Source: Burkholderia sp. Bp8992 (lineage in GTDB: Bacteria; Pseudomonadota; Gammaproteobacteria; Burkholderiales; Burkholderiaceae). Taken from it: DNA of 63,156 nucleotides. Of this stretch, positions 31,033-56,039 are shown in pieces. The notes beneath the pieces were generated by a model that worked only from the letters and a program-made list of their open reading frames with translations, made no database searches and was not told the DNA's origin. Position 1 is the first letter of the stretch; every line of letters begins with the position of its first letter. The stretch spans positions 1 through 63,156 of the forward strand of contig NZ_QTQI01000035.1 in assembly GCF_003853705.1 (NCBI RefSeq). The letters run 5' to 3'. Made by a program: the position numbers and the translations under genes.

Positions 31033-31049
31033 TGTTCGCATGGCGGACA
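31033..31049. promoter_or_regulatory. Island operator copy upstream of the second IclR gene
   Basis: TGTTCG-CATGG-CGGACA, a 17-bp near-perfect palindrome matching the motif found before the dioxygenase, P450, iif and CoA-ligase operons. It lies 139 bases before the IclR start at 30894 in the minus direction. A 48-codon frame (30904-31050, minus) overlaps it and ends ten bases before the IclR gene; it has no recognised family and is probably leader sequence. Confidence 0.65.
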
Positions 31050-31106
31050 TTGCGTAAGCACTCGCCCAGCACCGTAGCGTAGGTCGTTGACGACGGGAGC
31101 GCGATG

Positions 31107-31475
31107 CTATCGGATGGGTTCGACGTGGGCAGTAGACGGCAGCGCCGACGCCACGTTCCACGGCAACAACTCGTCGATGCGGTTGATCGGATGGTCAGCG
31201 ATGCGCTCGAGAACATAGGCGAGATATGCCTCGGGATCGAGGCCGTTCAAGCGCGCCGGGCCGATCAAGCTATACATCGCGGCAGCACGTTCGTCACCGG
31301 AGTCGGCGCCGGCGAACAAGTAATTCCGTCTGCCGAGGGCGACGCCGCGCAGCACTCGCTCGGCGATCAGGTTGTCGATTTCCGGGCGCCCGTCGCTGCA
31401 GTAGTAAATGAGCGTCGGCCAGCGATTCAGCGAATACTGAATCGCCTTGGTTGTGTCGGATTTTGCAGAGAGCGT
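31107..31475 (-). pseudogene. C-terminal remnant of an IS66-family transposase
   Basis: About 118 residues match the end of the IS66 TnpC transposase: [56 protein letters not shown] and [15 protein letters not shown]. Upstream of KSDTTK the frame changes to unrelated sequence, so the zinc-finger and most of the DDE domain are missing. Confidence 0.88.
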
Positions 31476-31483
31476 CGCGAGCG

Positions 31484-31552
31484 TTGCTTCACCCGGTCGA
31501 TGACCTCGCGCCCGTACTTGACGACGACGTGGAACAGGTCGAAATTTGGAAC
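31484..31552 (-). pseudogene. Short remnant of an ISL3-family transposase
   Basis: A stretch reading [20 protein letters not shown] is characteristic of the ISL3 transposase core. Only about 23 residues survive, in a different frame from the abutting IS66 remnant, so two elements were joined by deletion or insertion here. Confidence 0.55.
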
Positions 31553-31589
31553 ATGGATTTGTTGCAGATTCACTGTTCGATGTGGGACG

Positions 31590-31648
31590 CTTTGGACTCT
31601 GACCGTCGTTGACAACTACACATGGGAATGTTTGAGCCACCGAGGCCG
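31590..31648 (+). pseudogene. Left half of an older IS3-family transposase remnant
   Basis: The plus-strand frame reads [13 protein letters not shown], the integrase-core beta strand around the first catalytic Asp of IS3-family OrfB. It is cut at 31648 by the intact insertion sequence, and the expected continuation (GQILKG and onward) reappears just behind that element at 32857. Confidence 0.65.
31645..31648. repeat. Target-site duplication, left copy
   Basis: GCCG directly before the left inverted repeat of the insertion sequence; the same four bases follow its right end at 32853-32856. A 4-bp duplication is typical of the IS407 group of IS3. Confidence 0.85.
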
Positions 31649-31709
31649 TGACCTGCTCCCCGCGTTTAGTACGGTGACGGTGTAGAGTCCGTTCCAGAGA
31701 GGAACGGCA

Positions 31710-31970
31710 ATGAAAAAGCGATTCACCGAAGAACAAATCATCGGCATCTTGAAGGAAGCTGAGGCTGGCCTGAAGCCGGCGGAGCTGTGCCGCAAGTACG
31801 GCATATCGGAAGCGACCTACTACAACTGGAAAGCGAAGTTCGGCGGGATGACGGTCTCCGAAGCGCAGCGCCTGAAGGAACTGGAGCAGGAGAACAACAA
31901 GCTCAAGCGCCTGTTGGCCGAATCGATGCTCGACAACGCCGCGCTAAAGGACCTGCTGGCCCGAAAGTAG
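31710..31970 (+). CDS. IS407-group transposase OrfA
   Basis: An 86-residue DNA-binding protein of the insertion sequence. It has a helix-turn-helix ([20 protein letters not shown], then [12 protein letters not shown]) and a C-terminal leucine-zipper-like stretch ([19 protein letters not shown]). OrfA alone usually limits transposition; the OrfAB fusion made by -1 frameshifting is the active transposase. A possible slip site, A-AAG, lies at 31964-31967 just before the stop. Confidence 0.95.
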
Positions 31971-32836
31971 CAAGCCCGCAGGCCAAGCGCGAAGCGGTCC
32001 GAATCTTGATGACCGAACGCGCCATGGGTGTTACCCGGGCCTGCGGGCTGGTAGGGATTTCGCGCTCGCTGTTCCACTACGAATCACGCCGCCGAGTTGA
32101 CGACGAAGCGCTGACTGGCCGAATGATGGCCATCGCCGCGCAGAAGCGCCGATACGGCTATCGCCGGATTCACGTGCTGTTGCAGCGTGAGGGCTGCTTC
32201 GCGAACCACAAGCGCATCTGGCGCCTGTACAGCAAAGCGGGACTGAGCGTGCGCAAGCGGCGACGCAAGCGTATTGCGGCTGTCGAGCGCACGCCGCTGC
32301 CGTTACCAACAGGCCCGAATCAGAGTTGGTCGATGGACTTCGTTTCTGACGGGCTGGCCTATGGTCGGCGGTTTCGATGCCTGAACGTGGTCGACGACTA
32401 CACGCGCGAGTGCGTGGCCATCGAGGTCGATACTTCATTGCCGGGCCTACGCGTGCAGCAAGTGCTTGAGCGGCTCAAGGAGATGCGAGGCTTGCCCGCA
32501 TCCATCACGGTCGACAACGGGCCGGAGTTCGCTGGTAAGGTGCTGGATGCATGGGCCTACGAAGCCGGTGTCACGTTGTCGTTCATTCGGCCTGGCAAGC
32601 CGGTGGAGAATGCCTATATCGAGAGCTTCAACGGGCGCTTCCGCGATGAATGCCTGAACGAGCACTGGTTCGTCTCGATGCGCCACGCCAAGCGGGTGAT
32701 TGAGGAGTGGCGTATCGAGTACAACACCGAGCGGCCTCATAGTTCGCTCGGCTATCTGACGCCTGCGCAGTTCGCCCGGGCGCACGACACGAAGCAGCAG
32801 TTTTTAACCTCGGACTCTAACTGCAGTTCGGACTAA
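31967..32836 (+). CDS. IS407-group transposase OrfB (DDE integrase core)
   Basis: About 289 residues read in the -1 frame relative to OrfA. The start given is the point of likely frameshifting; an internal ATG at 32009 is also possible. After the HTH_21 region (YGYRRIHVLLQREG) the rve core carries the catalytic Asp in SWSMDFVSDGL, the second Asp in SITVDNGPEFAGK and the Glu in NAYIESFNGRFRDE. The stop codon lies inside the right inverted repeat, as in related elements. Confidence 0.94.
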   Translation, partial: VASPQAKREAVRILMTERAMGVTRACGLVGISRSLFHYESRRRVDDEALTGRMMAIAAQKRRYGYRRIHVLLQREGCFANHKRIWRLYSKAGLSVRKRRRKRIAAVERTPLPLPTGPNQSWSMDFVSDGLAYGRRFRCLNVVDDYTRECVAIEVDTSLPGLRVQQVLERLKEMRGLPASITVDNGPEFAGKVLDAWAYEAGVTLSFIRPGKPVENAYIESFNGRFRDECLNEHWFVSMRHAKRVIEEWRIEYNTERPHSSLGYLTPAQFARAHDTKQQFLTSDSNCSSD

Positions 32837-32852
32837 AACCGGGGGCAGGTCA

Positions 32853-32856
32853 GCCG
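32853..32856. repeat. Target-site duplication, right copy
   Basis: GCCG directly after the right inverted repeat, matching the four bases before the left end at 31645-31648. Confidence 0.85.
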
Positions 32857-33239: not shown

Positions 33240-34196
33240 TCAAGACTTTGTCGAGCTAGCCGCAACGGGTGAAAGGCTGGCGGCGTTGGCACGAATCCAT
33301 GAGCGCAGCGTAGCGGGCGTGCGTTTCAGTAGCATGCCGAGGGAACTCGAAGTACATACGGCCAACTCGTGTAATTGTTCGAAGCGATAGAATTCCAAGT
33401 AGTAGTCTGCGCCTTTGGGCCCGAAGAGCTGTTTGTACCTCGGGCCTACCGTCTCCAGCCATCGTGTGATGCTGTCGTCATAGGCTATCGGATAGTGCAG
33501 GACATCGCTCAGAATTTCGGCGACTTGCTTGAACGTGAAGATGTCCTGACCACTCTCGACATTGAAGTACTGGCCGGCATAGCGACTATCCTCGCTGAGG
33601 ATGATACGGGCCGCCGCTTCACCGACCTCCGCCGGGTCGGCCCAAGCTACTCGACGCTCGTATGGCATGAGCAGCGCTGCTTGCTCCCTGATCGGGCCAC
33701 CCCAGCGCAACAGATCATCCATTAGATACGCGCTCATGTTGAGATATGTGACCGGGAGGCCGCTGGCATCGAGGATTTGGCGAGCTAGCAAGTGTTGCGT
33801 GGCGGTACCCCCACCAAAATCGCGCAACTCTGGGGTGAGGTTGGCCGGCGTGACGTTAGGTAGATTTCCGACAATGCGGACGATGGTGCGCAGGTTTTTC
33901 GACTGCCGCGCGCCATTGACCAAATTGGTCATTGCGCGCTCCTCGTCGAGAAAGTCCGGTGTAACAACGAATACTGCAGTGACGTCAGCAAGAGCCTCGG
34001 CCATCGACGAAGCATCTAAATAATTTGCCGAAATCAACTCCGCCTTAGGGAATTGCTGTGCAAGCGATCGCTTGCTGGTGTCGCTACGCGTGGCGAGGCG
34101 AAGTAAGGTTTGAGGTGAGCGGTAGTTGATCCAACGTGCAACTGGTAGGCCGAGATGTCCGGCCGCACCGAATATCAGTACGCGATTAGCTGTCAT
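33240..34196 (-). CDS. NmrA-like NAD(P)-binding protein (atypical SDR)
   Basis: A 318-residue protein of the NmrA/atypical SDR group. The N-terminal dinucleotide motif is GAAGHLGLPVARW (about residues 8-20), and ADVTAVFVVTP and a YLNMSAYLMDDLLRWGGPIRE substrate region follow, split over two strands. The canonical YxxxK catalytic pair is not obvious, as is usual for NmrA proteins, which act as redox sensors or as NAD(P)H:quinone-type reductases. AAAGGA lies before the ATG at 34196. It is divergent from the dioxygenase operon across a gap with two operator copies, so co-regulation is possible. Confidence 0.85.
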   Translation of the reverse strand: MTANRVLIFGAAGHLGLPVARWINYRSPQTLLRLATRSDTSKRSLAQQFPKAELISANYLDASSMAEALADVTAVFVVTPDFLDEERAMTNLVNGARQSKNLRTIVRIVGNLPNVTPANLTPELRDFGGGTATQHLLARQILDASGLPVTYLNMSAYLMDDLLRWGGPIREQAALLMPYERRVAWADPAEVGEAAARIILSEDSRYAGQYFNVESGQDIFTFKQVAEILSDVLHYPIAYDDSITRWLETVGPRYKQLFGPKGADYYLEFYRFEQLHELAVCTSSSLGMLLKRTPATLRSWIRANAASLSPVAASSTKS

Positions 34197-34434
34197 GGGA
34201 TTCCTTTCGTGGACTCTGAACAATCCGAACTCTTGGCTCAGAAGTTGGATAGAGATTTGGCCGAGGTGTGTCGCTTGGCAAGCGCAAATACTACTGCGAC
34301 GGGGCTACCAGTCTGCGCGCCTGGGCATCCGCTACACCGAAGCGCACCTATATAAGCGCCAGACCCTATCTATCTCGGGTCGTCATCCGAAATCTAACGC
34401 TCCACTCATACGGGCTTATCGCGAACGTGTGACA

Positions 34435-34451
34435 TGTCCGAACTGCGGACA
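34435..34451. promoter_or_regulatory. Island operator, perfect copy, upstream of dioxygenase operon
   Basis: TGTCCG-AACTG-CGGACA, a perfect 6-5-6 palindrome in the 358-bp gap between the NmrA-like gene and the dioxygenase reductase gene, 104 bases before the reductase start. It matches the copies at 31033, 46711, 51657 and 56023. Confidence 0.75.
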
Positions 34452-34504
34452 TCTGCAGCATCGGTTCGGCTGCGACCCGGCACATCGCTATGCTTTGAGA
34501 CATC

Positions 34505-34521
34505 GGTCCGAAGGGCGGACA
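34505..34521. promoter_or_regulatory. Second island operator copy upstream of dioxygenase operon
   Basis: GGTCCG-AAGGG-CGGACA differs from the consensus in one base and is centred 70 bases from the first copy (close to seven helical turns). It ends 33 bases before the reductase start, a position that would block transcription or translation initiation when bound. Confidence 0.7.
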
Positions 34522-34554: not shown

Positions 34555-35565
34555 ATGTCGATCCCAATCCAGCTTGTCTTTTCCGACGGGCAAACCAACA
34601 CGCTCTTGCTCGAAGAAGGGGCAAGCATTTTGGCTGGGGCTCGCGATTGCGGGCTTTCCTTGCTCGTGGACTGTGAGCAAGGAAACTGTGGGACTTGTCA
34701 GGCGCAGGTGTCTCGCGGTTCAGTCGATATGGACGAGTTCAGCCCCTATGTCCTCTCCGAATCCGAACGCGCCGGCGGCGTTGTGCTCGTCTGCCGGGCG
34801 AAGACGACGCAGCCTGCCGTCATCGAGCTGCCTTACTCCGGTGATGACGCGCTTGCCGCTTCCGCGCCCGGATGCCTGGCAATTGTTGAAAGCATGAAAC
34901 CGGTAGCCGAGGACACGATTTGCTTGACGTTGCTGACGGAGGAGGTGGTCTCGTTCCTGCCAGGTCAGTACGTCAACATCGCACCCAAAGGTGGAGCCTT
35001 TGAGCGATCGTTTTCGATGGCGAATGCCCCAGGCTCGAAGCGACTGGAGTTCTATATCGCATTGCGATCTAACGGGCAGTTTTCCAACTGGTTGACTTCG
35101 GAAGCGCGGGCTGGAGATAGCGTCAATCTAGGCGCGCCGCGCGGCACATTCTATCTGCGTGGGGATGCCGGGCCGAAGGTGATGGTGGCTGGTGGAACGG
35201 GACTTGCCCCGTTTTTGTCAATGTTGGAACAGATCGCTCAGGACGAGCGCCCTGAGCATCGCTTGGCGCCCGTCATTCTTTTCATCGGCGCACGGCATGA
35301 GAGCCAGCTGTTCGAACTGGAGCGAATTGAACACTTCAAGGATCGGCTTGCGAGCCTACAGATCCATGTGTCGTGCGATGACGCAAACCCCGGTTCGTTC
35401 TACGGCAAGGGGCGCGTGACGCAACTCTTGGATCGGCTCTCGATCGACCGAACGTCCTCGATCTATGCGTGCGGTCCGCCGCCCATGGTCGACGCCGTCA
35501 GAGGCATCCTGAAAACCAAGCAGATTCCAGCCCGACAACTCTTTGCCGAGAAATTCACAGGCTAG
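34555..35565 (+). CDS. Ring-hydroxylating dioxygenase reductase (2Fe-2S, FAD, NAD)
   Basis: A 336-residue class IB-type reductase like BenC/AntC. The N-terminal plant-type ferredoxin has cysteines 40, 45, 48 and 80 (CEQGNCGTCQ). The FAD domain shows RSFSMAN, and the NAD domain GGTGLAPFLSML and YACGPPPMVDAV. It passes electrons from NADH to the oxygenase encoded by the next two genes. It is the first gene of the operon, 27 bases before the alpha subunit gene. Confidence 0.94.
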   Translation: MSIPIQLVFSDGQTNTLLLEEGASILAGARDCGLSLLVDCEQGNCGTCQAQVSRGSVDMDEFSPYVLSESERAGGVVLVCRAKTTQPAVIELPYSGDDALAASAPGCLAIVESMKPVAEDTICLTLLTEEVVSFLPGQYVNIAPKGGAFERSFSMANAPGSKRLEFYIALRSNGQFSNWLTSEARAGDSVNLGAPRGTFYLRGDAGPKVMVAGGTGLAPFLSMLEQIAQDERPEHRLAPVILFIGARHESQLFELERIEHFKDRLASLQIHVSCDDANPGSFYGKGRVTQLLDRLSIDRTSSIYACGPPPMVDAVRGILKTKQIPARQLFAEKFTG

Positions 35566-35591
35566 CAGTGACTCACGAGGAAACCAGACTC

Positions 35592-36998
35592 ATGAAACAA
35601 GACGCACCTTTTGTCCAGTGCATCAGTGCCGACTCGATTGGACGCAGCCGGTTTGCGGAATGCGTGGATCGAGATGCAGGATTGATCAGCCGCGAGATCT
35701 TTTCCGATGACGCGGTCTTCAAGGCCGAGCTCGAACGGATCTACACCAGGGCATGGCTCTTCGTAGGCCACGAAAGTCAGGTGAAGAATCCGGGGGATTT
35801 TTTCACCTCGCGCATGGGAAACGAGTCGGTCATTCTCTGCCGCGATCAGAAGGGCAAGCTTCATGTCTTCTTGAACACCTGTCGCCATCGCGGCATGAAA
35901 GTGTGTCAGTACGACGAGGGCAACACGAAGCAGTTCACGTGTCCGTATCATGCGTGGAGCTATACCACCGAAGGGAAGCTTTTCGGCGTTCCCATGTACG
36001 GCTCGCTCTACGAAGAGCACCTCGACAAGGACGCATGGTCGCTGATCGAAGTGGCACAACTCGAGAACTACAACGGAACGATCTGGGCGACTTGGGACAA
36101 GGAGGCGCCACAGTTGCTGGAGTACCTCGGCGACGCAAAGGAACACCTGGATCTTGCTATCGATGGCCTTAATGGCGTGCCGGGCGACACGGAGGTGTTC
36201 GTGGGTGTCCAAAAATGGATCATTCCGGCGAACTGGAAGATCGGCGCAGAGAACTTTCTGGGCGACACGTACCACAACCCCAGTCACCGCTCCGTAGACG
36301 ACATTGGGATCGGGCCCAGTGCCCAAGCGGGTAAAAAGGGCCGCCGCGATGACGAGCTCTCTGGTGCACAGCATGTCTGGGTCAACTTCCCGGCGGGGCA
36401 TGGCGCTCATAGTGCAATTCAGCCGGAGATGCTTCCCTACGCTGAAGCCTACCAAGACAATCCTGAAGTCGAGCAGTATTTCCGGCGTTGTTACGAAGAG
36501 CGTCAGCAGCGTCAAGGCGAAAATTCCCGCCTGCTTCCGTTCGTGTGCACGATTTTCCCGAACACCAGCTTCAACGGTCGCCAGCCGCGGTCGATTACCG
36601 TGTTTCATCCGCACGGACCCATGCATACGGAAATGTGGCGCTGGTATCTCATCGACAAGGACGCTCCTGCAGAAGTCCGAGACCTGCTCCGCCATTTCTA
36701 TATGCGGTACCAGGGCCCTGCAGGCATGACCGAACAGGATGACATCGAGAACTGGCAGATGGCCACGGAAGCAAGCGCCGGGGCTATTGCACGGCGCTAC
36801 CCATACAACTACCAGCAATCGCTGGGACGCGCGGGCTCACACGAGACGCTCGCCGGCAATGTATCGACGCAAATCTCTGAGGAAAATCCGCGAACCTTCT
36901 ATACGCGGTGGTCGGATTACATGGACGGGAAGCCTTGGGATCATCTGATGGGTGATCACGATCCCGTATTCAGCAGCTTGAAGGAGGGCAAGTCGTGA
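35592..36998 (+). CDS. Aromatic ring-hydroxylating dioxygenase, alpha subunit
   Basis: A 468-residue oxygenase large subunit. The Rieske cluster ligands are C97, H99, C117 and H120 (TCRHRGMKV ... FTCPYHAWSY). The mononuclear iron site has H228 and H232 in GDTYHNPSHRSV, with Asp225 bridging the two centres. With the beta subunit it should insert O2 into an aromatic ring to give a cis-diol or, with a leaving group, a catechol. The pairing with a BenC-type reductase fits benzoate/anthranilate-like substrates, and an anthranilate role would link it to the iif operon, but the sequence alone does not fix the substrate. GAGGAAA precedes the ATG. Confidence 0.92.
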   Translation: MKQDAPFVQCISADSIGRSRFAECVDRDAGLISREIFSDDAVFKAELERIYTRAWLFVGHESQVKNPGDFFTSRMGNESVILCRDQKGKLHVFLNTCRHRGMKVCQYDEGNTKQFTCPYHAWSYTTEGKLFGVPMYGSLYEEHLDKDAWSLIEVAQLENYNGTIWATWDKEAPQLLEYLGDAKEHLDLAIDGLNGVPGDTEVFVGVQKWIIPANWKIGAENFLGDTYHNPSHRSVDDIGIGPSAQAGKKGRRDDELSGAQHVWVNFPAGHGAHSAIQPEMLPYAEAYQDNPEVEQYFRRCYEERQQRQGENSRLLPFVCTIFPNTSFNGRQPRSITVFHPHGPMHTEMWRWYLIDKDAPAEVRDLLRHFYMRYQGPAGMTEQDDIENWQMATEASAGAIARRYPYNYQQSLGRAGSHETLAGNVSTQISEENPRTFYTRWSDYMDGKPWDHLMGDHDPVFSSLKEGKS

Positions 36999-37552
36999 GC
37001 GCAGTCGAGAAATTTGCGATGGACAACGATCAATTGCGCGAACTGACCTGGCAGGCCGAGCGATTTCTTTATCGTGAGGCAGATCTTCTTGACAACCGCC
37101 AATACGAGGAATGGCTCGAGATGTTGCATGCCAACCTGGTCTATTTCATGCCGATCCAGCGCAATGCGCGACACAGCGAGCTATCGGAAAGAGAGGCGAC
37201 GAAGGAAGGGGTCGATATCAGCTGGTTTGAGGAAGGAAAGTGGACGCTTGCCAAGCGTATCGAGCAAATCCGTACCGGTGTGCACTGGGCAGAGGAGCCG
37301 GTTTCCAGAATGGCGCATCTGGTGTCGAACATCTACGTTACGTCGGTGAACGAGGTCGAGGAAGATCTGGAAATCGAGGTGTCGAGTCGCATTCTGGTGC
37401 GCCAGAACCGAAATCAGTACGAGAACATGATGCTTGCCGCGCGCCGTAAAGACGTGTTGAGTCGTTCTTCCGATGGCTGGAAGCTTCGACGGCGGGAGAT
37501 CACTCTCACTGAGAACGTGCTTACCGTAAAGATGCTGACTACCTTCCTCTGA
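36995..37552 (+). CDS. Aromatic ring-hydroxylating dioxygenase, beta subunit
   Basis: A 185-residue small subunit with the NTF2-like fold, typical length for the family. It shows the usual LYREADLLDNRQYEEWLEML opening, RMAHLVSNIYV in the middle, and the SDGWKLRRREITLTENV ending. It starts at GTG overlapping the alpha-subunit TGA (GTGA), with AAGGAGG upstream, so the two are translationally coupled. It supports assembly of the alpha3beta3 hexamer. Confidence 0.93.
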   Translation: MSAVEKFAMDNDQLRELTWQAERFLYREADLLDNRQYEEWLEMLHANLVYFMPIQRNARHSELSEREATKEGVDISWFEEGKWTLAKRIEQIRTGVHWAEEPVSRMAHLVSNIYVTSVNEVEEDLEIEVSSRILVRQNRNQYENMMLAARRKDVLSRSSDGWKLRRREITLTENVLTVKMLTTFL

Positions 37553-39182: not shown

Positions 39183-39193
39183 GGAATTTCATT

Positions 39194-39316
39194 GTGCGGA
39201 TCCAACATCTGATCGACGGCAAGGCCGTCGAGAGCAACCAATACTTCGAGACAGTTAACCCGGCGACGCAGGAGGTGTTGGCTGTGGTCGCCGCGGGTCG
39301 GCAGGCAGGCAGAGAT
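39194..39316 (+). pseudogene. hpaE: N-terminal stub of HpaE-type semialdehyde dehydrogenase
   Basis: About 33 residues from a GTG start (RIQHLIDGKAVESNQYFETV, NPATQEVLAVVAAG) match the start of 5-carboxymethyl-2-hydroxymuconate semialdehyde dehydrogenase. The frame then runs into unrelated sequence, and by 39328 the reading belongs to HpaI. A deletion removed the rest of hpaE and the genes that normally separate it from hpaI. Confidence 0.8.
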
Positions 39317-46710: not shown

Positions 46711-46727
46711 TGTCCGCAACGTGGACA
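46711..46727. promoter_or_regulatory. Island operator upstream of the P450 operon
   Basis: TGTCCG-CAACG-TGGACA, 115 bases before the P450 start. One base departs from the perfect palindrome. It is the only strong symmetric element in the 383-bp gap (46460-46842) before the operon; short frames in that gap do not look coding. Confidence 0.7.
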
Positions 46728-46842
46728 TTGCGTACGAAGGAGGGGGGCGCCGCGTTCGCCGCCGTAGCATGAGCAGGAGCCACATTCTCGCATTCTTGTG
46801 CAGAGCCGGCTTTCCTTTGCAACGTAGCAGAGCAGAGCAACC

Positions 46843-48111
46843 ATGAATACATCAAATACTTCTCAAAGCGAGATTATCGATCTCCCTCCGCTTCCCGCGA
46901 CCCTCAATCCGTTTCCAGAATATGCCAAGCTGGCGGAGCGAGGTCCCGTGGTCCGGGTCAGGACGCCTGTTGGAACGGAGGTCTACCTGATCACGCGCTG
47001 GGCGGAGGCGATCGAGGTTCTCTCCAATCCCCTGATTGCAAAAGGTTCAGACCATATTCAGGCAGCCCTCGCCGCGCAAGGCCGCAGTGGGCCGGGCGCA
47101 GGGACCCCGATCGCCGGCTCTCAGGCTGGAAACCTTCTCAATACCGATCCACCCGATCACACGCGTCTGCGATCCTTGGTGATGCTCGCGTTCACGCCCC
47201 GGCGCCTCGAACAACTGCGGGCTACGGTGGAGCAACTGGTAGATCGTCTGATCGACCAGATGCGTGAAGGTCCCGAGGCAGATTTGATCGCGGATTTTGC
47301 CTACCCCATCGGTATCACGACGATCTGCACCATGCTCGGCGTACCGGAAGGCGACAGGTCCAATTTCCGGCAATGGGCCGAGTGGGCGATGACGCCTGGC
47401 CATAAAGAGCAGGACCATTGTATGGAACTGCTGCGAAACTATCTTGCGACTCTCATCGAATCCAAGCGTGAGGTACTGGCAGACGGCGCTGTTCCCGATG
47501 AGCAGCCTGACCTGCTAAGTGCCATGATTGCCGCGCGCAATGCTTCGAACGCGCTGACAATTGAGGAACTTCAAAGCATGTCGTATTTGCTTCTCATCGC
47601 TGGTCACGAAACCACGGTGGGACTGATCGGCAATGCGCTGTTGCACCTTATGCTGAATCCGGATCAGCAGCGGCTACTGGTCGAAGATCCTACGCTGATT
47701 AAAAACACCATCGAGGAGACGCTGCGTTACGACGGTTCAGTGCCATACACGACATTCCGGGCGACCACGGCAGATGTGAAAATTGGAGATACGGTGATTC
47801 CGGGCGGCAGTTTTGTACAGGTCGTGCTGCCTGCCCTCAACCGTGATCCTGAGAAGTTTGAAGATCCGGGCATCTTCGATATCCGCCGCAAAATCAAGCA
47901 GCACATGGCTTTCGGGCATGGCGTCCATTTTTGTCTTGGCTCTCACCTTGCTCGCCTGGAAGCGCAAACTGCGGTGGGGCGGCTCATGCAGGCATTTCCC
48001 AACGTCGAACTCAGCTGCGACCCAGCGGACATTCCTTGGCTTGGCACGGTGATCCGCGGTGCGCGATCGCTCCCGGTTCGCATCAACGGACAAGAATATA
48101 AGGAGTCCTGA
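46843..48111 (+). CDS. Cytochrome P450 (bacterial class I-type)
   Basis: A 422-residue soluble P450. The I-helix oxygen-activation motif AGHETT is at residues 253-258, ExxR is at 292-295 (ETLR), and the heme loop FGHGVHFCLG places the thiolate at Cys364. It is full length for CYP105/107-like enzymes. It heads an operon with an aldehyde dehydrogenase, an alcohol dehydrogenase and a 2Fe-2S flavin reductase. This suits hydroxylation of a methyl or methylene group followed by oxidation to the acid. O-demethylation with formaldehyde removal is the main alternative. Confidence 0.94.
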   Translation: MNTSNTSQSEIIDLPPLPATLNPFPEYAKLAERGPVVRVRTPVGTEVYLITRWAEAIEVLSNPLIAKGSDHIQAALAAQGRSGPGAGTPIAGSQAGNLLNTDPPDHTRLRSLVMLAFTPRRLEQLRATVEQLVDRLIDQMREGPEADLIADFAYPIGITTICTMLGVPEGDRSNFRQWAEWAMTPGHKEQDHCMELLRNYLATLIESKREVLADGAVPDEQPDLLSAMIAARNASNALTIEELQSMSYLLLIAGHETTVGLIGNALLHLMLNPDQQRLLVEDPTLIKNTIEETLRYDGSVPYTTFRATTADVKIGDTVIPGGSFVQVVLPALNRDPEKFEDPGIFDIRRKIKQHMAFGHGVHFCLGSHLARLEAQTAVGRLMQAFPNVELSCDPADIPWLGTVIRGARSLPVRINGQEYKES

Positions 48112-48113
48112 TA

Positions 48114-49535
48114 ATGTATCGCGGATTCAATGTCAGTGCGGGGCGCCGCGACGTAGCTACGGAATGGTACGCTGTCGAGGACCCTGCCGTCCTCACGCCA
48201 ATAGCAGAAGCGCCGATAACCACGCCGCAAGCGCTCGACGATGCCGTTGCCTCGGCTGCAGCCGCTCTCGGCAGTTGGGCGTCGGACCTCACGGCCCGTC
48301 GCAATGCTCTGAAGCGGTGCGCTGCGTTGCTGGCTGCCAATCTTGAGGAATTTGCCATCCTGCTCAGTCGGGAGCAGGGAAAGCCGCTGCTGGCGGCGAC
48401 ACGAGAACTTCTGTCTGCCAAAGGTTACCTGGAATATTTCGCCGAGAAGAGTGCGCATCAGGAGATCATCCGGTCTGATCCAGGCCGAACGGTTGTGGCA
48501 GTGAGTGCCCCGGTTGGGGTCGTGGGGATTATCGTGCCCTGGAATTTCCCTATTGTGCTTCTGATGATGAAGCTCGGCCCCGCACTGTGGGCAGGGAACA
48601 CCGTGGTGGTCAAGCCAGCACCAACGACGCCGCTGACGACCTTGGCCATCGCAAACCTGTTTGCCGATTGCCTGCCGCCGGGGGTGCTGAACACGGTGAC
48701 GGGTGGCACGGATGTTGGTGCGTCCCTGGTGAGTCATGCTGGCGTGGCGAAGATATCGTTCACCGGATCGACGCCGACCGGAAAGAAGATTATGGCCAGC
48801 GCCGCACAAACCCTGAAACGACTGACGCTCGAGTTGGGCGGCAACGACGCAGCCATCGTCCTTGCGGACGCGGATATCGACGCGTCCGTACCCTTGCTGT
48901 TTGAACGATCGTTCATGAACGCTGGCCAAGTGTGCTGCGCGGTTAAGCGCTTGTTCGTGCATCGATCGCTATACGAGCCGCTGGTGGAGAAGATGGCGTC
49001 GATCGCAAAGACATGGCGTGTCGGTCCTGGATTGACCGATGGCGTGCAGATGGGGCCTCTACATAATCGCCAACAGTTCGACCATGTGAAAGCGCTCTTG
49101 GACGATGCCGTTGCGACGGGCGGTCGGATTGTCACAGGGGGGACGAAGCCGGACGAATGGGCGGGTCACTTCCTGCGACCGGCAATCGTCGTGGATGTTT
49201 CGGACAGCAGTCGACTCGTGCGCGAGGAGCAGTTTGGACCGGCGCTGCCCATACTGACTTTCGACGATGAAGACGAGGCAGTCTCCCGGGCGAATGCCTC
49301 GGAGTTTGGTCTGGGCGGCTCAGTGTGGTCTACCAATATCGGACGTGCGACGGCATTGGTCCGCCGGCTGGAAGCGGTGAATCTGTTCGTGAATCAGCAC
49401 GCAACTCCTCCCGATCCTGCGATTCCTTTCGGGGGAATGAAGTCGAGTGGCTTCGGGTACGAATTCGGTGAATGGGGTCTCGATGAATTCGTAGTGCGAA
49501 AAGTATTGCACAGCCAGACGGGAGGTTTGGCATGA
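48114..49535 (+). CDS. Aldehyde dehydrogenase
   Basis: A 473-residue NAD(P)-dependent aldehyde dehydrogenase. The catalytic Glu lies in LTLELGGNDAAI and Cys in NAGQVCCAVKR (near residue 280); the cofactor fold shows PWNFPIVLL and FTGSTPTGKK. It starts three bases after the P450 stop and overlaps the next gene by ATGA, so translation is coupled. It should oxidise the aldehyde made from the P450 product by the neighbouring alcohol dehydrogenase. Confidence 0.93.
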   Translation: MYRGFNVSAGRRDVATEWYAVEDPAVLTPIAEAPITTPQALDDAVASAAAALGSWASDLTARRNALKRCAALLAANLEEFAILLSREQGKPLLAATRELLSAKGYLEYFAEKSAHQEIIRSDPGRTVVAVSAPVGVVGIIVPWNFPIVLLMMKLGPALWAGNTVVVKPAPTTPLTTLAIANLFADCLPPGVLNTVTGGTDVGASLVSHAGVAKISFTGSTPTGKKIMASAAQTLKRLTLELGGNDAAIVLADADIDASVPLLFERSFMNAGQVCCAVKRLFVHRSLYEPLVEKMASIAKTWRVGPGLTDGVQMGPLHNRQQFDHVKALLDDAVATGGRIVTGGTKPDEWAGHFLRPAIVVDVSDSSRLVREEQFGPALPILTFDDEDEAVSRANASEFGLGGSVWSTNIGRATALVRRLEAVNLFVNQHATPPDPAIPFGGMKSSGFGYEFGEWGLDEFVVRKVLHSQTGGLA

Positions 49536-50644
49536 GCAGGCTGATGAGGGCGGCTATTCTCGAAGGGGTAGGTCGACCCCTGCGCATTGCCGATGACGTG
49601 GAGATCGATGACCCGCGGGCCGGCGAAGTGTTGGTGAGAATCACGCATTGCGGGGTCTGCAACACGGATCTGGCGCTCGCCGACGGCAAGGTGGGCTACC
49701 CCGTGCCAGCGGTGCTGGGTCACGAAGCAGCGGGCACGGTCGCGGCACTTGGTGCGGGGGTAACTGATCTCGCTTTCGGTCAACGGGTCGTGGTCTCCAT
49801 GCGACCGGCATGCGGAACTTGTTACTTCTGTGTGCGCAATCAGCCTGTTTTGTGTGTCGCGGCCGAGAGCCCTTCCCGTACGGCGGGACCCGCCGGCCAC
49901 GATGTGCGCGTTCGGCATCGAGGGACACCGGTGGCTCGGGGACTTCGCCTGGGGGCGTTCGCGGAGTACGTGCTTGTGGAGCGCAGTGGTGTCGTTCCGG
50001 TCCCTGACTCCATTTCGTTGACGCACGCAGCGACGATGGGATGTGCAGTGCAAACCGGTATGGGATCGGTGGCAAACGTGGCCGCAGTGCCGGAAGGCGC
50101 CACCGCTGCCGTCGTGGGGCTCGGCGCGGTGGGGCTCTCGACGATTCAGGCGTTGCGAATTGCACGCGCAGGACTGGTGGTGGGTCTTGATTTCAATGCT
50201 GACCGACGCATTCACGCGCAGAGGCTTGGGGCGAACGCAACGTTCGACAACTCGGCCGCTGGATTTGAAGACCCCTGTCGGACGCTGACGGGGGGGATCG
50301 GTTTCGACTTCGTATTTGATGGGGTCTGTAGTCCTGACAGCTTGAATCTGTGTGCTTCCCTGGTGCGCAAGGGGGGGGTGATCGTCATGATCGGTGTCGC
50401 CAAGCCAGCGGAATCGGTGTCGATCGGAGCGCTGGACATGGTGTTGCGGCAATTGCAGGTCAAAGGGTCCTACCTTGGTAACTGTCATGCACAGCGAGAC
50501 CTTCCGCGATATTTCGATCTGTGCTGCCATCGAGCGCTGGACCTGAGCAGCCTGGTCACGAACGTGAGGCCATTGGAAGAAGTTAATGAGGCTCTTCAGG
50601 ATCTCCGCGATGGCGTTGGCATCCGGACGGTGCTGACAATCTGA
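49532..50644 (+). CDS. Zinc-dependent medium-chain alcohol dehydrogenase
   Basis: A 370-residue MDR enzyme. The catalytic zinc site is shown by CGVCNTDLALADG and GHEAAGTV. The structural zinc loop has cysteines in RPACGTCYFCVRNQPVLC. The Rossmann motif VGLGAVGLST lies near residue 192. The pattern fits the aryl/benzyl alcohol dehydrogenase group. It overlaps the aldehyde dehydrogenase gene and precedes the reductase gene by 20 bases. It should convert the P450-made alcohol to the aldehyde. Confidence 0.92.
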   Translation: MSRLMRAAILEGVGRPLRIADDVEIDDPRAGEVLVRITHCGVCNTDLALADGKVGYPVPAVLGHEAAGTVAALGAGVTDLAFGQRVVVSMRPACGTCYFCVRNQPVLCVAAESPSRTAGPAGHDVRVRHRGTPVARGLRLGAFAEYVLVERSGVVPVPDSISLTHAATMGCAVQTGMGSVANVAAVPEGATAAVVGLGAVGLSTIQALRIARAGLVVGLDFNADRRIHAQRLGANATFDNSAAGFEDPCRTLTGGIGFDFVFDGVCSPDSLNLCASLVRKGGVIVMIGVAKPAESVSIGALDMVLRQLQVKGSYLGNCHAQRDLPRYFDLCCHRALDLSSLVTNVRPLEEVNEALQDLRDGVGIRTVLTI

Positions 50645-50664
50645 TTCAAAGCGGGGAAAATCTG

Positions 50665-51627
50665 ATGACTCAACTCAAGATGCGAGTGGCCAGAAAAGAG
50701 CGGGAGGCAGACGGAATCTGCAGTCTCGAGCTCGAATCGATCGACGGCCAGGCGCTGCCGCCGTTTCGCGCTGGCGCACATATTGATTTCCATTTGCCGG
50801 GCGGCTTGATACGCCAATACTCGCTGTTTGGATCTCCTTTCGATCAGCGGCGTTATCGCATTGCCGTATTGTTGGACGCCAATTCTCGTGGTGGGTCCAA
50901 GGCGGTTCACGAGAGCGTCCATGCGGGAGATGAGGTGATCATCTCGTCGCCACGTAATCACTTTCCGCTTGTCCCGTCCGAGAAGTCGATTCTGATTGCG
51001 GGTGGCATCGGGATTACTCCAATGCTCTGCATGGCTGAGGAATTGAGCGTTGAGGGAAAGGCGTACGATCTGCATTACTGTGTTCGTACTGCAAATCGCG
51101 CAGCCTTTCTCGGTCGACTTGGCGCAGCTCCGTTCGTCGAAAACACTCACGTCCACTTCGACGACGCCTCCGGATCGCAGGGGCCACTTGATCTGGACGC
51201 TCTCCTTGCACACCCGAGGCAAGGTGTCCACCTCTACGTGTGCGGACCGAGCGGGCTTATCGATTCAGTTGTTGAAGGCGCGAAGCGCCACAACTGGCCT
51301 GACGATCACGTTCACTTTGAGCATTTCGCTCCGCCGCCATCGTCTCAGAAACAGGGGGGGCATGGCTTCGAAGTGCGCATCGCAAGCACGGGTCAGACTT
51401 TTCTCATCCTGCCAGAGGAGTCTGTTGCACAGGTCCTGGCCAGAAATGGCATTGATATCCCGGTTTCTTGTGAGCAAGGCGTGTGCGGAACTTGTGTCAC
51501 AAGAGTCATTGAAGGTGAGCCCGACCATCGAGATCTCTTTTTGACAGAGGCCGAGCAGGCGGCCAATGATTGTTTCACGGCATGTTGTTCTCGTGCTCGC
51601 GGACCCCTGCTCGTTTTAGATCTCTAG
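50665..51627 (+). CDS. Phthalate dioxygenase reductase-type flavin/2Fe-2S reductase, likely P450 redox partner
   Basis: A 320-residue oxidoreductase with the order flavin domain (RQYSLFGSP), NAD domain (AGGIGITPMLCM; YVCGPSGLID), then C-terminal plant-type ferredoxin with Cys269, Cys274, Cys277 (CEQGVCGTC) and a last cysteine near 307. This is the VanB/PDR layout. In this operon the only oxygenase is the P450, so a single-protein electron supply to that P450 is likely, in contrast to the usual two-protein chain. GGGGAAAA precedes the ATG. Confidence 0.92.
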   Translation: MTQLKMRVARKEREADGICSLELESIDGQALPPFRAGAHIDFHLPGGLIRQYSLFGSPFDQRRYRIAVLLDANSRGGSKAVHESVHAGDEVIISSPRNHFPLVPSEKSILIAGGIGITPMLCMAEELSVEGKAYDLHYCVRTANRAAFLGRLGAAPFVENTHVHFDDASGSQGPLDLDALLAHPRQGVHLYVCGPSGLIDSVVEGAKRHNWPDDHVHFEHFAPPPSSQKQGGHGFEVRIASTGQTFLILPEESVAQVLARNGIDIPVSCEQGVCGTCVTRVIEGEPDHRDLFLTEAEQAANDCFTACCSRARGPLLVLDL

Positions 51628-51656
51628 TGCGTTCGTTCGCGCCGGTCAGCTCGATC

Positions 51657-51673
51657 TGTCCGCACCCCGAACA
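51657..51673. promoter_or_regulatory. Island operator upstream of the iif-type operon
   Basis: TGTCCG-CACCC-CGAACA, 294 bases before the first gene of the iif-type operon and 29 bases after the reductase stop. The 340-bp leader (51628-51967) contains no gene that I can support; a minus-strand frame ending at 51796 resembles a beta-ketoacyl synthase tail only weakly. Confidence 0.65.
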
Positions 51674-51967
51674 TGTACGTGTGATTCGTTCGGAAAGAAA
51701 AATGATAGACGTATTCTTGGTTCTATCGCCATCGTCAATTTGATGACAACAAGACTCGGTCGGCTACCGAGCGCGTTGTCCGACAGATCAGTGCACTAGG
51801 CGTAATAGCCATTGATACCGCCGAAGGCATAACTGACGGCGTAACGGTGGCACGGATTATCACCTGGGCAGGGGATATCGTGCGGATCGAGTGCGTTGGC
51901 GACAACGCGAGGGTCTCGAGCGATCGCTTGCCTAATTGACCATGACAACATCAAGGAGAGATAGGCC

Positions 51968-53197
51968 ATGGGCCAGACCATCCAGATCGGCTGCGCAGAC
52001 GGCAGTTTCAGCGGATACCTTGCCACCCCGGCTGCAGGGAGGGGGCCTGGGATTGTGCTGTGCCAAGAGATTTTTGGTGTCAATGCCAATATGCGCAAGG
52101 TCGCGGATTACTACGCCGAAGAAGGTTATACCGTGCTGGTGCCTGATCTGTTCTGGCGCCTCTCGCCCGGCATCGAATTGGAAGACCATGGTGAAGATTT
52201 CCAGCGCGCTTTGGGGCTGTGCCAGCAGTTTGACGAGGCCAAGGGTGTGCAGGACGTCGGCGCAGCACTGACGACGCTGCGGCAACGTCCGGAATGTGTC
52301 GGCCACACTGGTGTGCTGGGTTTCTGCTTGGGAGGCAAACTGGCTTACTTGGCAGCATGCAGGCTCGAAGGCGTCGCGTGCGCGGTTGGCTACTATGGCG
52401 TGGGTATCGAGCATGCATTGAGCGAGGCTGCCAATCTCAAGGGCCGGCTGGTGCTGCATATCGCCCAGAATGATGGTTTCTGTCCGCCGGACGCGCAGGC
52501 GGCCATCGTGGAGAGCCTGGGTGGCAAGGAGAACGTCGAACTGCACGTTTACCAAGGGGTTGATCACGCCTTCGCCCGTGCCGATGGTGCGCACTTCGAC
52601 AAGTCTGCGGCCCTGATCGCGCACCAGCGCTCGATTGCAGCACTGCGTGGAGAGATGGGTCCGCATTACGATCTTTCGGCGCTTTGGGACAAGCACTGCG
52701 AGCACGAATTCTTTACTCGCGACGTGGATGCCACCATGGCCACCATGGTCTCCGAGCCGTACGTCAATCACATCCCGACCATGACCGGCGGCGTGGGCTA
52801 TCGGCAGTTGAAGCGCTTTTATCAGCATCACTTCGTGCACGGCAATCCGCCCGACATCAGCATGATCCCGATCTCGCGCACGATCGGCGCGAGCCAGGTG
52901 GTTGACGAGAGCCTGCTCTGCTTTACCCATACCACTGAAATCGACTGGATGCTGCCCGGCGTGAAGCCGACCGGCAGGCGAGTGGAAATCCCGCTTGTTG
53001 GCATCATCAAGTTCCGCGGTGACAAGCTATACCACGAGCACATCTATTGGGACCAGGCCAGCGTGCTGGTGCAGATCGGTCTGCTCGATCCCGAGGGTTT
53101 GCCGGTGGCCGGAGTGGAGACGGGGCGCAAGCTGCTGGATGAGTCGCTGCCTTCGAACACGCTGATGGCGCGCTGGAAAGAAAGCGAAGGGAAGTAG
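51968..53197 (+). CDS. iifA: Dienelactone hydrolase / SnoaL-like fusion, IifA-like cofactor-independent oxygenase candidate
   Basis: A 409-residue two-domain protein. Residues 1 to about 235 are a dienelactone hydrolase fold with the triad Cys120 (GFCLGG), Asp169 and His200. Residues about 245-400 form an NTF2/SnoaL-like domain (YQHHFVHGNPPDI; YHEHIYWDQASVLVQIGLLD split across two strands). Position and order with the next three genes match the iifABCD indole genes of Acinetobacter, where IifA turns 3-hydroxyindolin-2-one into anthranilate. Assignment rests on my memory of that cluster and the gene order. AAGGAGAG precedes the ATG. Confidence 0.7.
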   Translation: MGQTIQIGCADGSFSGYLATPAAGRGPGIVLCQEIFGVNANMRKVADYYAEEGYTVLVPDLFWRLSPGIELEDHGEDFQRALGLCQQFDEAKGVQDVGAALTTLRQRPECVGHTGVLGFCLGGKLAYLAACRLEGVACAVGYYGVGIEHALSEAANLKGRLVLHIAQNDGFCPPDAQAAIVESLGGKENVELHVYQGVDHAFARADGAHFDKSAALIAHQRSIAALRGEMGPHYDLSALWDKHCEHEFFTRDVDATMATMVSEPYVNHIPTMTGGVGYRQLKRFYQHHFVHGNPPDISMIPISRTIGASQVVDESLLCFTHTTEIDWMLPGVKPTGRRVEIPLVGIIKFRGDKLYHEHIYWDQASVLVQIGLLDPEGLPVAGVETGRKLLDESLPSNTLMARWKESEGK

Positions 53198-53257
53198 GCT
53201 GACTGGCATCTCCGCCAGAGCGGGGATGCCGAGATTCACCAAGAAAGAGGAACCATC

Positions 53258-54046
53258 ATGAAAGGACTGCAGGACAAGGTCGCCATCATCACCGGGGGCG
53301 CGACACTTATTGGTGCCGGTGTGGCCCGCGCGTTCGTCGCGGCAGGCGCGAGCGTGGCGATCCTCGACATCGACGTGGTCGGCGGGGAGCGCGTGGCCGC
53401 CGAGTTGGGAGAGAAGGCAATCTTCATCGCCACGGATATTACCAAGGACGATCAAGTCAGCGCAGCGGTCGCCAAGGTTGTGAGTCGTTTCGGAGGCGTG
53501 GACTTTTTGGTGAACCTGGCCTGCACGTATTTGGACGACGGCTTCAAGTCTCCCCGCGCTGATTGGCAGACTGCCCTCGACGTCAACGTGGTGTCCGGAA
53601 TCATGTTGGCCCAGAAGGTTCATCCAGAGATGAAGGCGCGTGGGGGCGGTGCAATTGTCAACTTTACGAGTATCTCGGCAAAGGTTGCCCAGACGGGGCG
53701 TTGGCTCTATCCGGTTTCCAAGGCGGCAATTTTGCAGCTGACGCGCAGTATGGCGATGGACCTCGCGCCAGACCGCATTCGTGTGAACGCGGTGTCCCCG
53801 GGCTGGATCTGGTGCAGGTTGATGGACGAAATGAGCGGTGGCAATCGAGCGGGTATCGACGAACTCGCCACACCGTTCCATCTGTTGGGACGGGTTGGTG
53901 ATCCGGACGAAGTTGCGCAGGTGGTGCTGTTTCTGTGCTCCGACAATGCCAGTTTCGTCACCGGCGCCGACTACGCCGTGGACGGGGGGTATTCGGCGAT
54001 GGGCCCCGAACAGAATGTCCCGCCATACGGCAAGCAGGCCGGCTAA
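53258..54046 (+). CDS. iifB: SDR dehydrogenase, IifB-like indole dihydrodiol dehydrogenase candidate
   Basis: A 262-residue classical-type SDR. The cofactor motif reads TGGATLIG (residues 13-20), the NNAG tetrad is replaced by NLAC, and YPVSK carries the catalytic Tyr and Lys, with Ser in VNFTSISAKV. In the iif pathway this enzyme oxidises indole 2,3-dihydrodiol to 3-hydroxyindolin-2-one. The unusual tetrad may be a subgroup trait. AAAGAGGAA precedes the ATG; the next gene begins 30 bases after its stop. Confidence 0.75.
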   Translation: MKGLQDKVAIITGGATLIGAGVARAFVAAGASVAILDIDVVGGERVAAELGEKAIFIATDITKDDQVSAAVAKVVSRFGGVDFLVNLACTYLDDGFKSPRADWQTALDVNVVSGIMLAQKVHPEMKARGGGAIVNFTSISAKVAQTGRWLYPVSKAAILQLTRSMAMDLAPDRIRVNAVSPGWIWCRLMDEMSGGNRAGIDELATPFHLLGRVGDPDEVAQVVLFLCSDNASFVTGADYAVDGGYSAMGPEQNVPPYGKQAG

Positions 54047-54076
54047 AAATTAACGATATCCTCCAGGAGATATATC

Positions 54077-55318
54077 ATGAGTCAACGTATCGCCATCGTT
54101 GGAGCCGGGCAGTCCGGGCTGCAAATGGCCCTCGCTCTGCAGTCCAAGGGCTACCAAGTGACCTTGGTCACCAACCGCACACCCGATCAGATCCGCGCTG
54201 GCAAGGTTATGTCCAGTCAGGGCATGCTTCACAGTGCACTGCAGATCGAGCGCGATCTTGGGCTGAATATGTGGGACGACACGTGCCCGCCTGTGCAGGG
54301 TGTAAGCCTGACGGTGTTGCAGCCGGGGAAGCCCGGCGAGAAGATGCTTGAGTGGATGGCTTCTCTGGAGCACCCGGGCCAGTCTACGGACCAGCGCGTG
54401 AAGATGCCGATCTGGATGGAGACCTTCGTCCAGCGCGGGGGCGATCTGCGCATCGTCGACGCAGGTTTGGAGGAGCTAGAGGATCTGGCGCAACACCACG
54501 ATCTTGTGCTGCTGGCTGCCGGTAAGGGCGAGATCGTCAACCGTTTCGAGCGCGACGTCGCAAACAGCCCGTTCGATGTGCCGCAACGTGCGTTGGCACT
54601 GGCCTACGTGACCGGTATGACGCCGCGTACGCCGTTCTCACGCATTGGCTTCAATGTGATTCCTGGCGTGGGCGAGTACTTCAGCTTCCCGGCACTGACG
54701 TTGTCCGGCTTATGCGACATCATGGTTTTCGAAGGTGTGCCGGGCGGCCCGATGGATCGCTGGGCAGAGGCCCGCACGCCGGAGCAACATCTGGCCGAAT
54801 GCCTGCGTGTCGTGCGTACTTATCTGCCGTGGGAAGCCGAGCGATGCGAGCAGGTCGAGCTGACCGACGAAAACGGCATTCTCTCTGGGCGCTTCGCACC
54901 GACCGTGCGGAAGCCGGTCATGACCCTGCCGTCGGGACGACATGTGTTCGGAATGGCAGATGCGGTGGTGGTCAACGACCCTCTTACGGGGCAGGGCTCC
55001 AACAACGCTTCCAAGTGCTGCAAGGTCTATCTCGACGCGATTCTTGATCATGGCGATCGACCGTTCGACGCGGAATGGATGGAAGCCACCTTTGCCCGCT
55101 ATTGGGAATACGCGCGTCACGTTGTCACCTGGACCAATTCGATGTTGGCGCCTCCGCCCCCGCATATTCTTAAACTGTTCGGCGCGGCCAGCGAGTCGCC
55201 GGCGTTGGCGGCACGCATCGCTAATGGCTTCGACAACCCGCCGAGCTTCTTCCCTTGGTGGACGGAGGCGCAAGCGTGCGAACAGATGATCGAGCAATAC
55301 GTTGGACAGGCAGCCTGA
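54077..55318 (+). CDS. iifC: Group E flavoprotein monooxygenase (styrene/indole monooxygenase, StyA/IifC type)
   Basis: A 413-residue FAD-dependent oxygenase of the StyA/indole oxygenase family. It has an N-terminal GAGQSG dinucleotide motif (residues 9-14), lacks an NAD(P)H domain as expected for two-component enzymes, and carries the conserved DPLTGQGSNNASKC segment near 305-318. It uses reduced FAD from the adjacent reductase to epoxidise indole or styrene-like double bonds; here, by context, indole at C2-C3. AGGAGATAT precedes the ATG. Active homologues commonly give indigo from indole. Confidence 0.9.
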   Translation: MSQRIAIVGAGQSGLQMALALQSKGYQVTLVTNRTPDQIRAGKVMSSQGMLHSALQIERDLGLNMWDDTCPPVQGVSLTVLQPGKPGEKMLEWMASLEHPGQSTDQRVKMPIWMETFVQRGGDLRIVDAGLEELEDLAQHHDLVLLAAGKGEIVNRFERDVANSPFDVPQRALALAYVTGMTPRTPFSRIGFNVIPGVGEYFSFPALTLSGLCDIMVFEGVPGGPMDRWAEARTPEQHLAECLRVVRTYLPWEAERCEQVELTDENGILSGRFAPTVRKPVMTLPSGRHVFGMADAVVVNDPLTGQGSNNASKCCKVYLDAILDHGDRPFDAEWMEATFARYWEYARHVVTWTNSMLAPPPPHILKLFGAASESPALAARIANGFDNPPSFFPWWTEAQACEQMIEQYVGQAA

Positions 55319-55319
55319 C

Positions 55320-55814
55320 ATGAATGAATTACCGCAAATTGCCCCTGAGCCGCAAGCGCTGCGCCGGGTGTGCGGACGCTACGCAACTGGCGTGGCGGTG
55401 ATCGGAGCCTGCGGACCTGAGGGGCGGTTGGTCGGCATGACGGTCAATTCGTTTGCTTCGCTTTCGTTGACGCCGCCGCTGATCCTGTGGAGCCTCGCAT
55501 TGCATTCGCCGAACGCTGCACTGTTCGCGCCGGGGGAACGCTTCGGTGTGAGCATCTTGCGAGCTGGGCACGGCGAGCTAGCTCGGCACTTCGCAAGATC
55601 GTCACCCGATAAGTTCACTGGCGTTCCGCATCAGCGTTGCGAGCGAGGCGTTCCCTATCTTGAAGAGGCGCTGGCACAACTGGCTTGTCGGGTAGAGCGC
55701 GCCGATCCGGTCGGAGATCATCTGCTGATCGTCGGTGAGGTCGAGAGGGTGGCTGTGTGTGAAGGTGAACCATTGGTGTTCTACGGCGGCGACTTTGTCA
55801 GCCTGGCGGCTTGA
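55320..55814 (+). CDS. iifD: Flavin reductase, StyB/IifD type
   Basis: A 164-residue flavin reductase of the HpaC/StyB family: VCGRYATGVAVIGA, then GMTVNSFASLSLTPPLILWS with the flavin-binding serines, and GDHLLIVGEVERV near the end. It makes free reduced FAD with NADH for the monooxygenase encoded directly upstream; the start overlaps closely (TGACATG). It is the last gene of the iif-type operon. Confidence 0.93.
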   Translation: MNELPQIAPEPQALRRVCGRYATGVAVIGACGPEGRLVGMTVNSFASLSLTPPLILWSLALHSPNAALFAPGERFGVSILRAGHGELARHFARSSPDKFTGVPHQRCERGVPYLEEALAQLACRVERADPVGDHLLIVGEVERVAVCEGEPLVFYGGDFVSLAA

Positions 55815-56022
55815 TCAAGAAGCGCAGGAATTTCGCAGAAGGACCACCCGTGAACTCGCACGCTCGTGCGAGTTCCGGCTTCCCTCTATCGAATGTTGCC
55901 TCGACCGTCGAGTCCTGTTTTTACAGATGCTTTAGGGTCGGCCCTGCCAGGGGTGTCGTCTCGTTCCGGCGAGCGCCGGCATGTGCTCGTGATGTACGTT
56001 TGTAGCATGAGGAGACACGATC

Positions 56023-56039
56023 TGTCCGGAGTCCGAACA
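56023..56039. promoter_or_regulatory. Island operator upstream of the CoA-ester operon
   Basis: TGTCCG-GAGTC-CGAACA, a near-perfect 6-5-6 palindrome 92 bases before the SDR gene at 56132. It sits in a 317-bp gap (55815-56131) without other supported features and matches the copies at 31033, 34435, 46711 and 51657. Confidence 0.72.

Follow-up and report, generated by a model that had tools for sequence, protein, structure and literature searches.

A shared 17-bp palindrome upstream of four catabolic operons points to a probable IclR regulon on a Burkholderia genomic island

According to PMC8222616, a regulator of the IclR family usually acts on its own gene together with one or two neighboring operons. 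The same paper gives TGTYCRYW3RYGRACA as the consensus of group-1 IclR operators, assigns the TGT-11-ACA operator class to 41 orthologous groups in which genes for aromatic compounds are over-represented, and lists GTCTCATCAGAC as the operator of IphR from Comamonas sp. E6. The indole-oxidizing iif operon of Acinetobacter is described as regulated by IifR (PMC6221969). We analyzed a 63,156-nucleotide stretch from Burkholderia sp. Bp8992 (contig NZ_QTQI01000035.1, positions 1 to 63,156; hereafter the window), which carries an island with four catabolic operons and the genes of two IclR-family proteins, IclR1 and IclR2, all preceded by a 17-bp palindrome. We hold with moderate confidence that these operators belong to IclR1, which would unite the four catabolic operons and IclR2 in one regulon controlled mainly by activation.

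Scanning the window on either strand for TGTYCG-N5-YGRACA yielded five exact copies (starting at 31033, 34435, 46711, 51657, and 56023) and two copies with one mismatch, at 34505 (GGTCCG...CGGACA) and 28917. All seven copies with at most one mismatch sit in intergenic gaps 5′ of island genes, and to the left of the integrase gene at 26229 there is none. A sequence-only reading of this DNA had named six sites with five-base spacers that were missing from the resident-type region on the left, and had proposed a window scan for chance density. We found all six, with 34505 as the one-mismatch copy and the other five exact, and likewise the empty region on the left; the count itself was incomplete, since the seventh site, ahead of IclR2, had been overlooked. 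In 300 dinucleotide shuffles of the whole window, exact copies occurred with a mean of 0.04 and a maximum of 1 (five observed), and copies with up to one mismatch with a mean of 1.84 and a maximum of 7 (seven observed). The exact copies greatly exceed chance expectation, whereas the one-mismatch copies alone would not; the signal is carried by the exact copies and their placement, and the one-mismatch copies depend on conservation. At two mismatches the window scan was uninformative (32 matches versus a mean of 22.2, a number reached by 14 shuffles). The half-sites TGTYCR and YGRACA with their five-base spacing correspond to the TGT-11-ACA pattern of IclR group 1. The Y-W3-R centre of the consensus is not strictly kept, the spacers being AACTG, AAGGG, CAACG, CACCC, GAGTC, and CATGG.

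Paraburkholderia phenoliruptrix HU18 (our genome G400, locus L020, contig C24; apparently identical to G663) carries every module of the island, with the blocks reordered: P450-iif-CoA-outer-membrane protein, then IclR2 and IclR1, followed by NmrA/Rieske. All four catabolic operons of HU18 carry an exact TGTYCR-N5-YGRACA operator at the matching place. The operator pair in the Rieske gap is retained as well, at 71 bp instead of 70 bp and with one mismatch in the second site, and IclR2 is preceded by the one-mismatch site TGACCGTCTGGTGGACA. The six operator-bearing gaps are only 45–62% identical between the window and HU18, so that the operator sites stand out. In the 7.0-Mb genome of HU18, TGTYCR-N5-YGRACA occurs exactly at five places, four of them in the island, versus one for the reversed control pattern.

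Related iif and P450 loci elsewhere lack a nearby operator. Matches to iifC at E up to 1e-100 are found in 90 of 398 Burkholderiaceae genomes, and we fetched 19 Burkholderiaceae iif loci outside the island, of which 16 have an iifA match and three do not. In these 19 loci iifA–C are 63–84% identical and iifD is 39–76% identical to the island proteins. None of the 16 loci with iifA has an operator at 0–1 mismatch within 600 bp 5′ of this gene (two have a two-mismatch match). A relative of the P450 set in genome G601 (P450 66% identical, reductase not found) has no operator at 0–1 mismatch within 8 kb upstream of the P450 gene; the single exact site of that stretch lies ∼8 kb off. Because the operator is absent near these iif and P450 relatives, it travels, on this comparison, with the island and not with the enzymes.

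Downstream of the operators, a TANNNT hexamer lies 54–55 bp from the operator start in all eight promoters of the four catabolic operons in the two homologous genomes, and at any other separate two-wide offset between −120 and +130 it occurs in at most two of the eight. We propose these hexamers as −10 elements (Table 1). The best matches to a −35 box reach 1–3 of 6 positions in the catabolic promoters, and a sigma-70 scan of 51600–51990 returned no promoter-like site. With a predicted start ∼12 bp past the start of the hexamer, the operator centre would lie near −58, which we take to be the position of the operator of the IclR activator MhpR. The second Rieske operator would then cover about +4 to +20, and the other catabolic promoters have an upstream site only. 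No −10 lies inside the island operators, whose spacers are mostly GC-rich. Provided that the proposed −10 of the iif operon is correct, 51718–51967 would include a leader of ∼240 nucleotides before iifA.

IclR1 belongs to the IclR family, with both PF09339 (helix-turn-helix, HTH) and PF01614 (effector domain) above the curated cut-offs. It is 80% identical to its counterpart in HU18 and about 49–56% identical to proteins of other loci. Relatives at E up to 1e-45 are found in 18 of 398 genomes of the family (IMCC1007, introduced below, and HU18 included), and at 1e-50 in 3 of 399 genomes of the order (IMCC1007 included). Relatives with 50–56% identity mostly adjoin iph-like (isophthalate) operons. 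In Comamonas endophytica, a Rieske oxygenase, a transporter-binding protein, a short-chain dehydrogenase/reductase (SDR), and a VanB-type reductase are followed by an IclR protein with 53% identity to IclR1, a gene row that we take to be the isophthalate order iphACBDR. Searching the C. endophytica oxygenase against 22 fetched loci gave 19 matches, of which 18 were kept and one (L075, 34%) was dropped; in the 17 further loci a relative of this oxygenase (69–93%) lies close to the IclR gene. The Rieske promoters of these loci have a TGTCCR-like half-site over the −10 in 14 of 18 cases and the variant ATCCR in three, and the promoter of L076 has neither over its −10. In L071, GTCTCATCAGACGGACA contains the listed IphR operator. 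The recognition helix LSRPTLYR is common to IclR1 and 20 relatives in which the HTH is covered; in L076 this part is not covered. Near the IclR gene, Comamonas, Variovorax, and genomes G050 (with the palindrome inside the first part of this gene), G134, and G417 have full palindromes deviating at no more than one position. In Comamonas and G134, a comparable upstream site is combined with a good TTGACA, a TAAAAT, and another operator that covers the −10.

As judged through the iph-like loci, IclR1 is probably close to the IphR lineage. Its neighbors are IclR2, insertion sequence (IS) remnants, NmrA, and an alpha-beta Rieske operon instead of an iphACBD-type operon, and we therefore call it IphR-like rather than IphR. 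IclR1 very probably binds the operators described here. The proposal of one regulon with this protein as the best candidate regulator is thus well supported, as a prediction, by the matching sites in HU18 and the half-sites of the relatives; it did not include the probable IphR-like affinity or a promoter geometry suggestive of activation. The reason originally given for it, the copy ahead of the IclR1 gene, fares less well: the copy exists, but it is the weakest site, with two mismatches in its HU18 counterpart and an IS66 remnant adjoining the window copy.

From the sequence we infer binding, effector, and sign of control as follows. IclR1 would bind the palindromes ahead of the four catabolic operons and IclR2. 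With the operator centre near −58, effector-bound IclR1 would recruit RNA polymerase at promoters without a −35, and binding of a pathway compound would most likely make IclR1 an activator of the four operons. At the Rieske promoter, the second operator just 3′ of the predicted start might add repression. Given binding, activation at the single-operator promoters is fairly likely. The operator lies upstream of a −10 without a −35 here and over the −10 in the relatives, which suggests that IclR1 mainly activates and that the relatives repress. Tentatively, a mobile island may have taken up a lineage of IphR-type repressors that then became an activator of several operons; its operator would have shifted from a position over the −10 to a fixed one at about −58, and four modules assembled separately, among them an indole operon without the site elsewhere, would have been wired in.

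Several observations weigh against this picture. The relatives of IclR1 resemble repressors, and PMC13040137 describes IphR as such; PMC8222616 places the IphR motif outside group 1. Most Burkholderiaceae relatives fit only half-sites or variant palindromes near the IclR gene. TGTCCR-N5-YGGACA totals 30 occurrences versus 34 for the control in 16 genomes (IMCC1007 and HU18 excluded), and exact matches to the looser pattern number three in G134 versus six for the control; position and half-sites, not genome-wide enrichment in the relatives, therefore make the case for IclR1. In HU18, the site ahead of IclR1 deviates at two positions and stands at a different distance from the gene, and the full regulon was found in only two independent carriers. 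A hexamer in 4/4 promoters at any tested offset arose in 0 of 5000 shuffles of the 100 bp past each operator in either genome, a figure that is not a clean probability because the TANNNT template was picked after the alignment had been seen; nor are the eight promoters independent, given the homology between the two genomes. At the P450 promoter, another −10 candidate occurs at offset ∼76 (TATTCT at 76 in HU18), and the IclR1 and IclR2 promoters lack the 54–55 register.

The same regulon and regulator could also operate by repression, with IclR1 silencing all units until an inducer is present and the true promoters lying elsewhere or overlapping the operators. A full or variant half-site covers the −10 in 17 of the 18 Rieske promoters of the relatives, which together with the published description of IphR and the second site of the island Rieske promoter speaks for such a scheme; we nevertheless regard it as rather unlikely, since the island operators enclose no −10 and the sole element in fixed register lies 54–55 bp downstream without a −35. 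Binding of the operators by IclR2, either alone or jointly with IclR1, is improbable. IclR2 was found with the island only (E up to 1e-30: 2 of 349 family genomes, both island carriers), stands beside IclR1 also in HU18, and is itself preceded by an operator-like site that is conserved, but it is only 22% identical to IclR1, has a different recognition helix (LPRPTVYR), and has no match in the fetched stretches of Comamonas, Variovorax, and the other loci with an IclR1 relative. Very improbable, finally, is an origin of the sites by chance or for a host regulator that recognizes a similar motif: TGT-11-ACA operators are common among IclR regulators (PMC8222616) and six exact places lie off the island in IMCC1007, yet the sites are enriched, intergenic, conserved although the blocks are rearranged, and absent from the iif loci examined elsewhere, which speaks against it. 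Activation by IclR1 remains the reading that we prefer.

Table 1. Operators, proposed −10 elements, and genes of the island (window coordinates)
Feature	Position	Strand	Remarks
Operator 7 (IclR2)	28917..28933	+	One mismatch, TGGCCGCCAGATGGACA; 3′ end 90 bp ahead of IclR2; HU18 form TGACCGTCTGGTGGACA
IclR1-upstream operator	31033..31049	-	Exact; adjoins IS66 remnant; weak HU18 counterpart at other distance
Distal Rieske operator	34435..34451	+	Exact; inside divergent NmrA/Rieske gap; kept in HU18
Proximal Rieske operator	34505..34521	+	One mismatch; 70 bp past distal operator (71 bp in HU18)
P450-operon operator	46711..46727	+	Exact; kept in HU18
iif-operon operator	51657..51673	+	Exact; kept in HU18
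CoA-operon operator	56023..56039	+	Exact; kept in HU18
Proposed Rieske −10, TATGCT	34489..34494	+	Offset 54 from distal operator; HU18 TATTAT
Proposed P450 −10, TAGCAT	46765..46770	+	Offset 54; HU18 TATCAT
Proposed iif −10, TATTCT	51712..51717	+	Offset 55; HU18 TATTCT
Proposed CoA −10, TACGCT	56078..56083	+	Offset 55; HU18 TACTCT
IclR2, second IclR-family protein, convergent with IclR1; probable regulon member	29024..29830	+	Pfam
IclR1, IclR-family regulator, IphR-like; proposed regulator	30121..30894	-	Pfam HTH_IclR and IclR_C
NmrA-like NAD(P)-binding protein, divergent from Rieske operon	33240..34223	-	Pfam
Rieske dioxygenase: BenC-like reductase, alpha (HcaE-like), beta	34555..37552	+	Pfam, NCBIfam, PDB sequence matches
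P450, aldehyde dehydrogenase, alcohol dehydrogenase, flavin/2Fe-2S reductase	46843..51627	+	Pfam
iifABCD-like indole oxidation operon	51968..55814	+	Pfam
CoA-ester operon: SDR, MaoC-type hydratase, ChsH2-like OB protein, thiolase, acyl-CoA ligase	56132..61039	+	Pfam, alignment

The iif operon has the order and domains of iifA, B, C, and D (DLH-SnoaL fusion, SDR, SMO-type monooxygenase, and flavin reductase); the nearest PDB sequences to iifC are 9lrq and 7z4x, followed by styrene/indole monooxygenases. Reductase and alpha subunit of the Rieske dioxygenase score below the equivalog cut-offs of NCBIfam. For the CoA operon, alignment with HU18 favors an ATG start at 56132 over a TTG at 56087. No acyl-CoA dehydrogenase is found among the five genes of this set, which would fit an arylacrylate-type side chain. 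Other island genes encode a fumarylacetoacetate (FAA) hydrolase, an aldehyde dehydrogenase, a major facilitator superfamily transporter, and a chemoreceptor (Pfam, NCBIfam); a broken FAA-hydrolase-like gene (38416–39300) lies between the intact one and the aldehyde dehydrogenase gene. The combination of indole oxidation, P450 set, Rieske dioxygenase, and CoA side-chain pathway suggests that they act on one substrate. Fusaric acid, on which Burkholderia sp. IMCC1007 was isolated, was considered as substrate and rejected, as nothing was seen that links the island to it.

Positions 26016–63079 of the window match IMCC1007 with 99.4% identity in the left piece and 99.98% in the two right pieces, and the contig of IMCC1007 stops at the left edge of the match. 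The stretch left of the island (12342–15119) is only 92% identical in IMCC1007 and up to 96% elsewhere among 31 Burkholderia genomes. From this difference, the island has probably moved recently between Burkholderia species. An integrase gene lies at 26229–27809; ARAGORN found no tRNA genes in the window. The match is interrupted by ∼1.2 kb containing a transposase gene of the IS3 type, and this IS3-type element (31649–32852), missing from IMCC1007, separates the IclR1 operator from the NmrA gene. Beside the 31033 operator, a remnant of an IS66 transposase spans 31107–31736, and a stretch resembling its part 31150–31435 is found 5′ of IclR2 in HU18. In the 8.6-Mb genome of IMCC1007, 11 distinct exact operator places are listed, five of them in the island. 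Each of the six others is overlapped by at least one predicted open reading frame (ORF) of at least 100 amino acids; they were examined and left out of the regulon. Two of these off-island palindromes (L011 1501–1517 and L003 1501–1517) lie 5′ of plausible gene starts, those of an SDR-like ORF and of an enoyl-CoA-hydratase-like ORF (named by eye), and they are possible targets of IclR1 or another IclR protein.

The island would illustrate how modules of different origin on horizontally transferred DNA can come under one local regulator, and offers a concrete case for whether a lineage of IclR repressors can become activating through an operator shift. It also bears on the regulation of iif operons, a question raised in PMC6221969. 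No published account of this regulon was found in titles and abstract openings, most subscription papers lying outside the coverage.

Among the closest described systems is the IphR/iph operon of Comamonas sp. E6: half-sites match, and the iph-like locus of C. endophytica carries the 53% relative of IclR1. However, the half-site of the IphR-like relatives mostly lies over the −10 of one operon, whereas IclR1 would serve at least four catabolic operons from an upstream operator, and the island Rieske dioxygenase is of the HcaE/biphenyl alpha-beta type, unlike the iph-like oxygenases. The operators also resemble the GTNCG-N5-6-CGNAC palindromes of the MhpR, PobR, and PcaU type (PMC8222616). Against the PcaR/PcaU/PobR profile, IclR1 scores 92 bits versus a cut-off of 284.75 bits; the proteins of iph-like loci are closer to it. 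MhpR presumably binds near −58 and activates. In contrast to the 16 iif/ind loci elsewhere with iifA, the island iif operon has an operator of this class; IifR is presumably an AraC-type regulator. The operator class is already known, and the wiring of this regulon looks new: given the usual reach of IclR regulators, what is novel is that it extends to at least four operons, that its regulator has an IphR-like ancestry, and that the operator is shifted.

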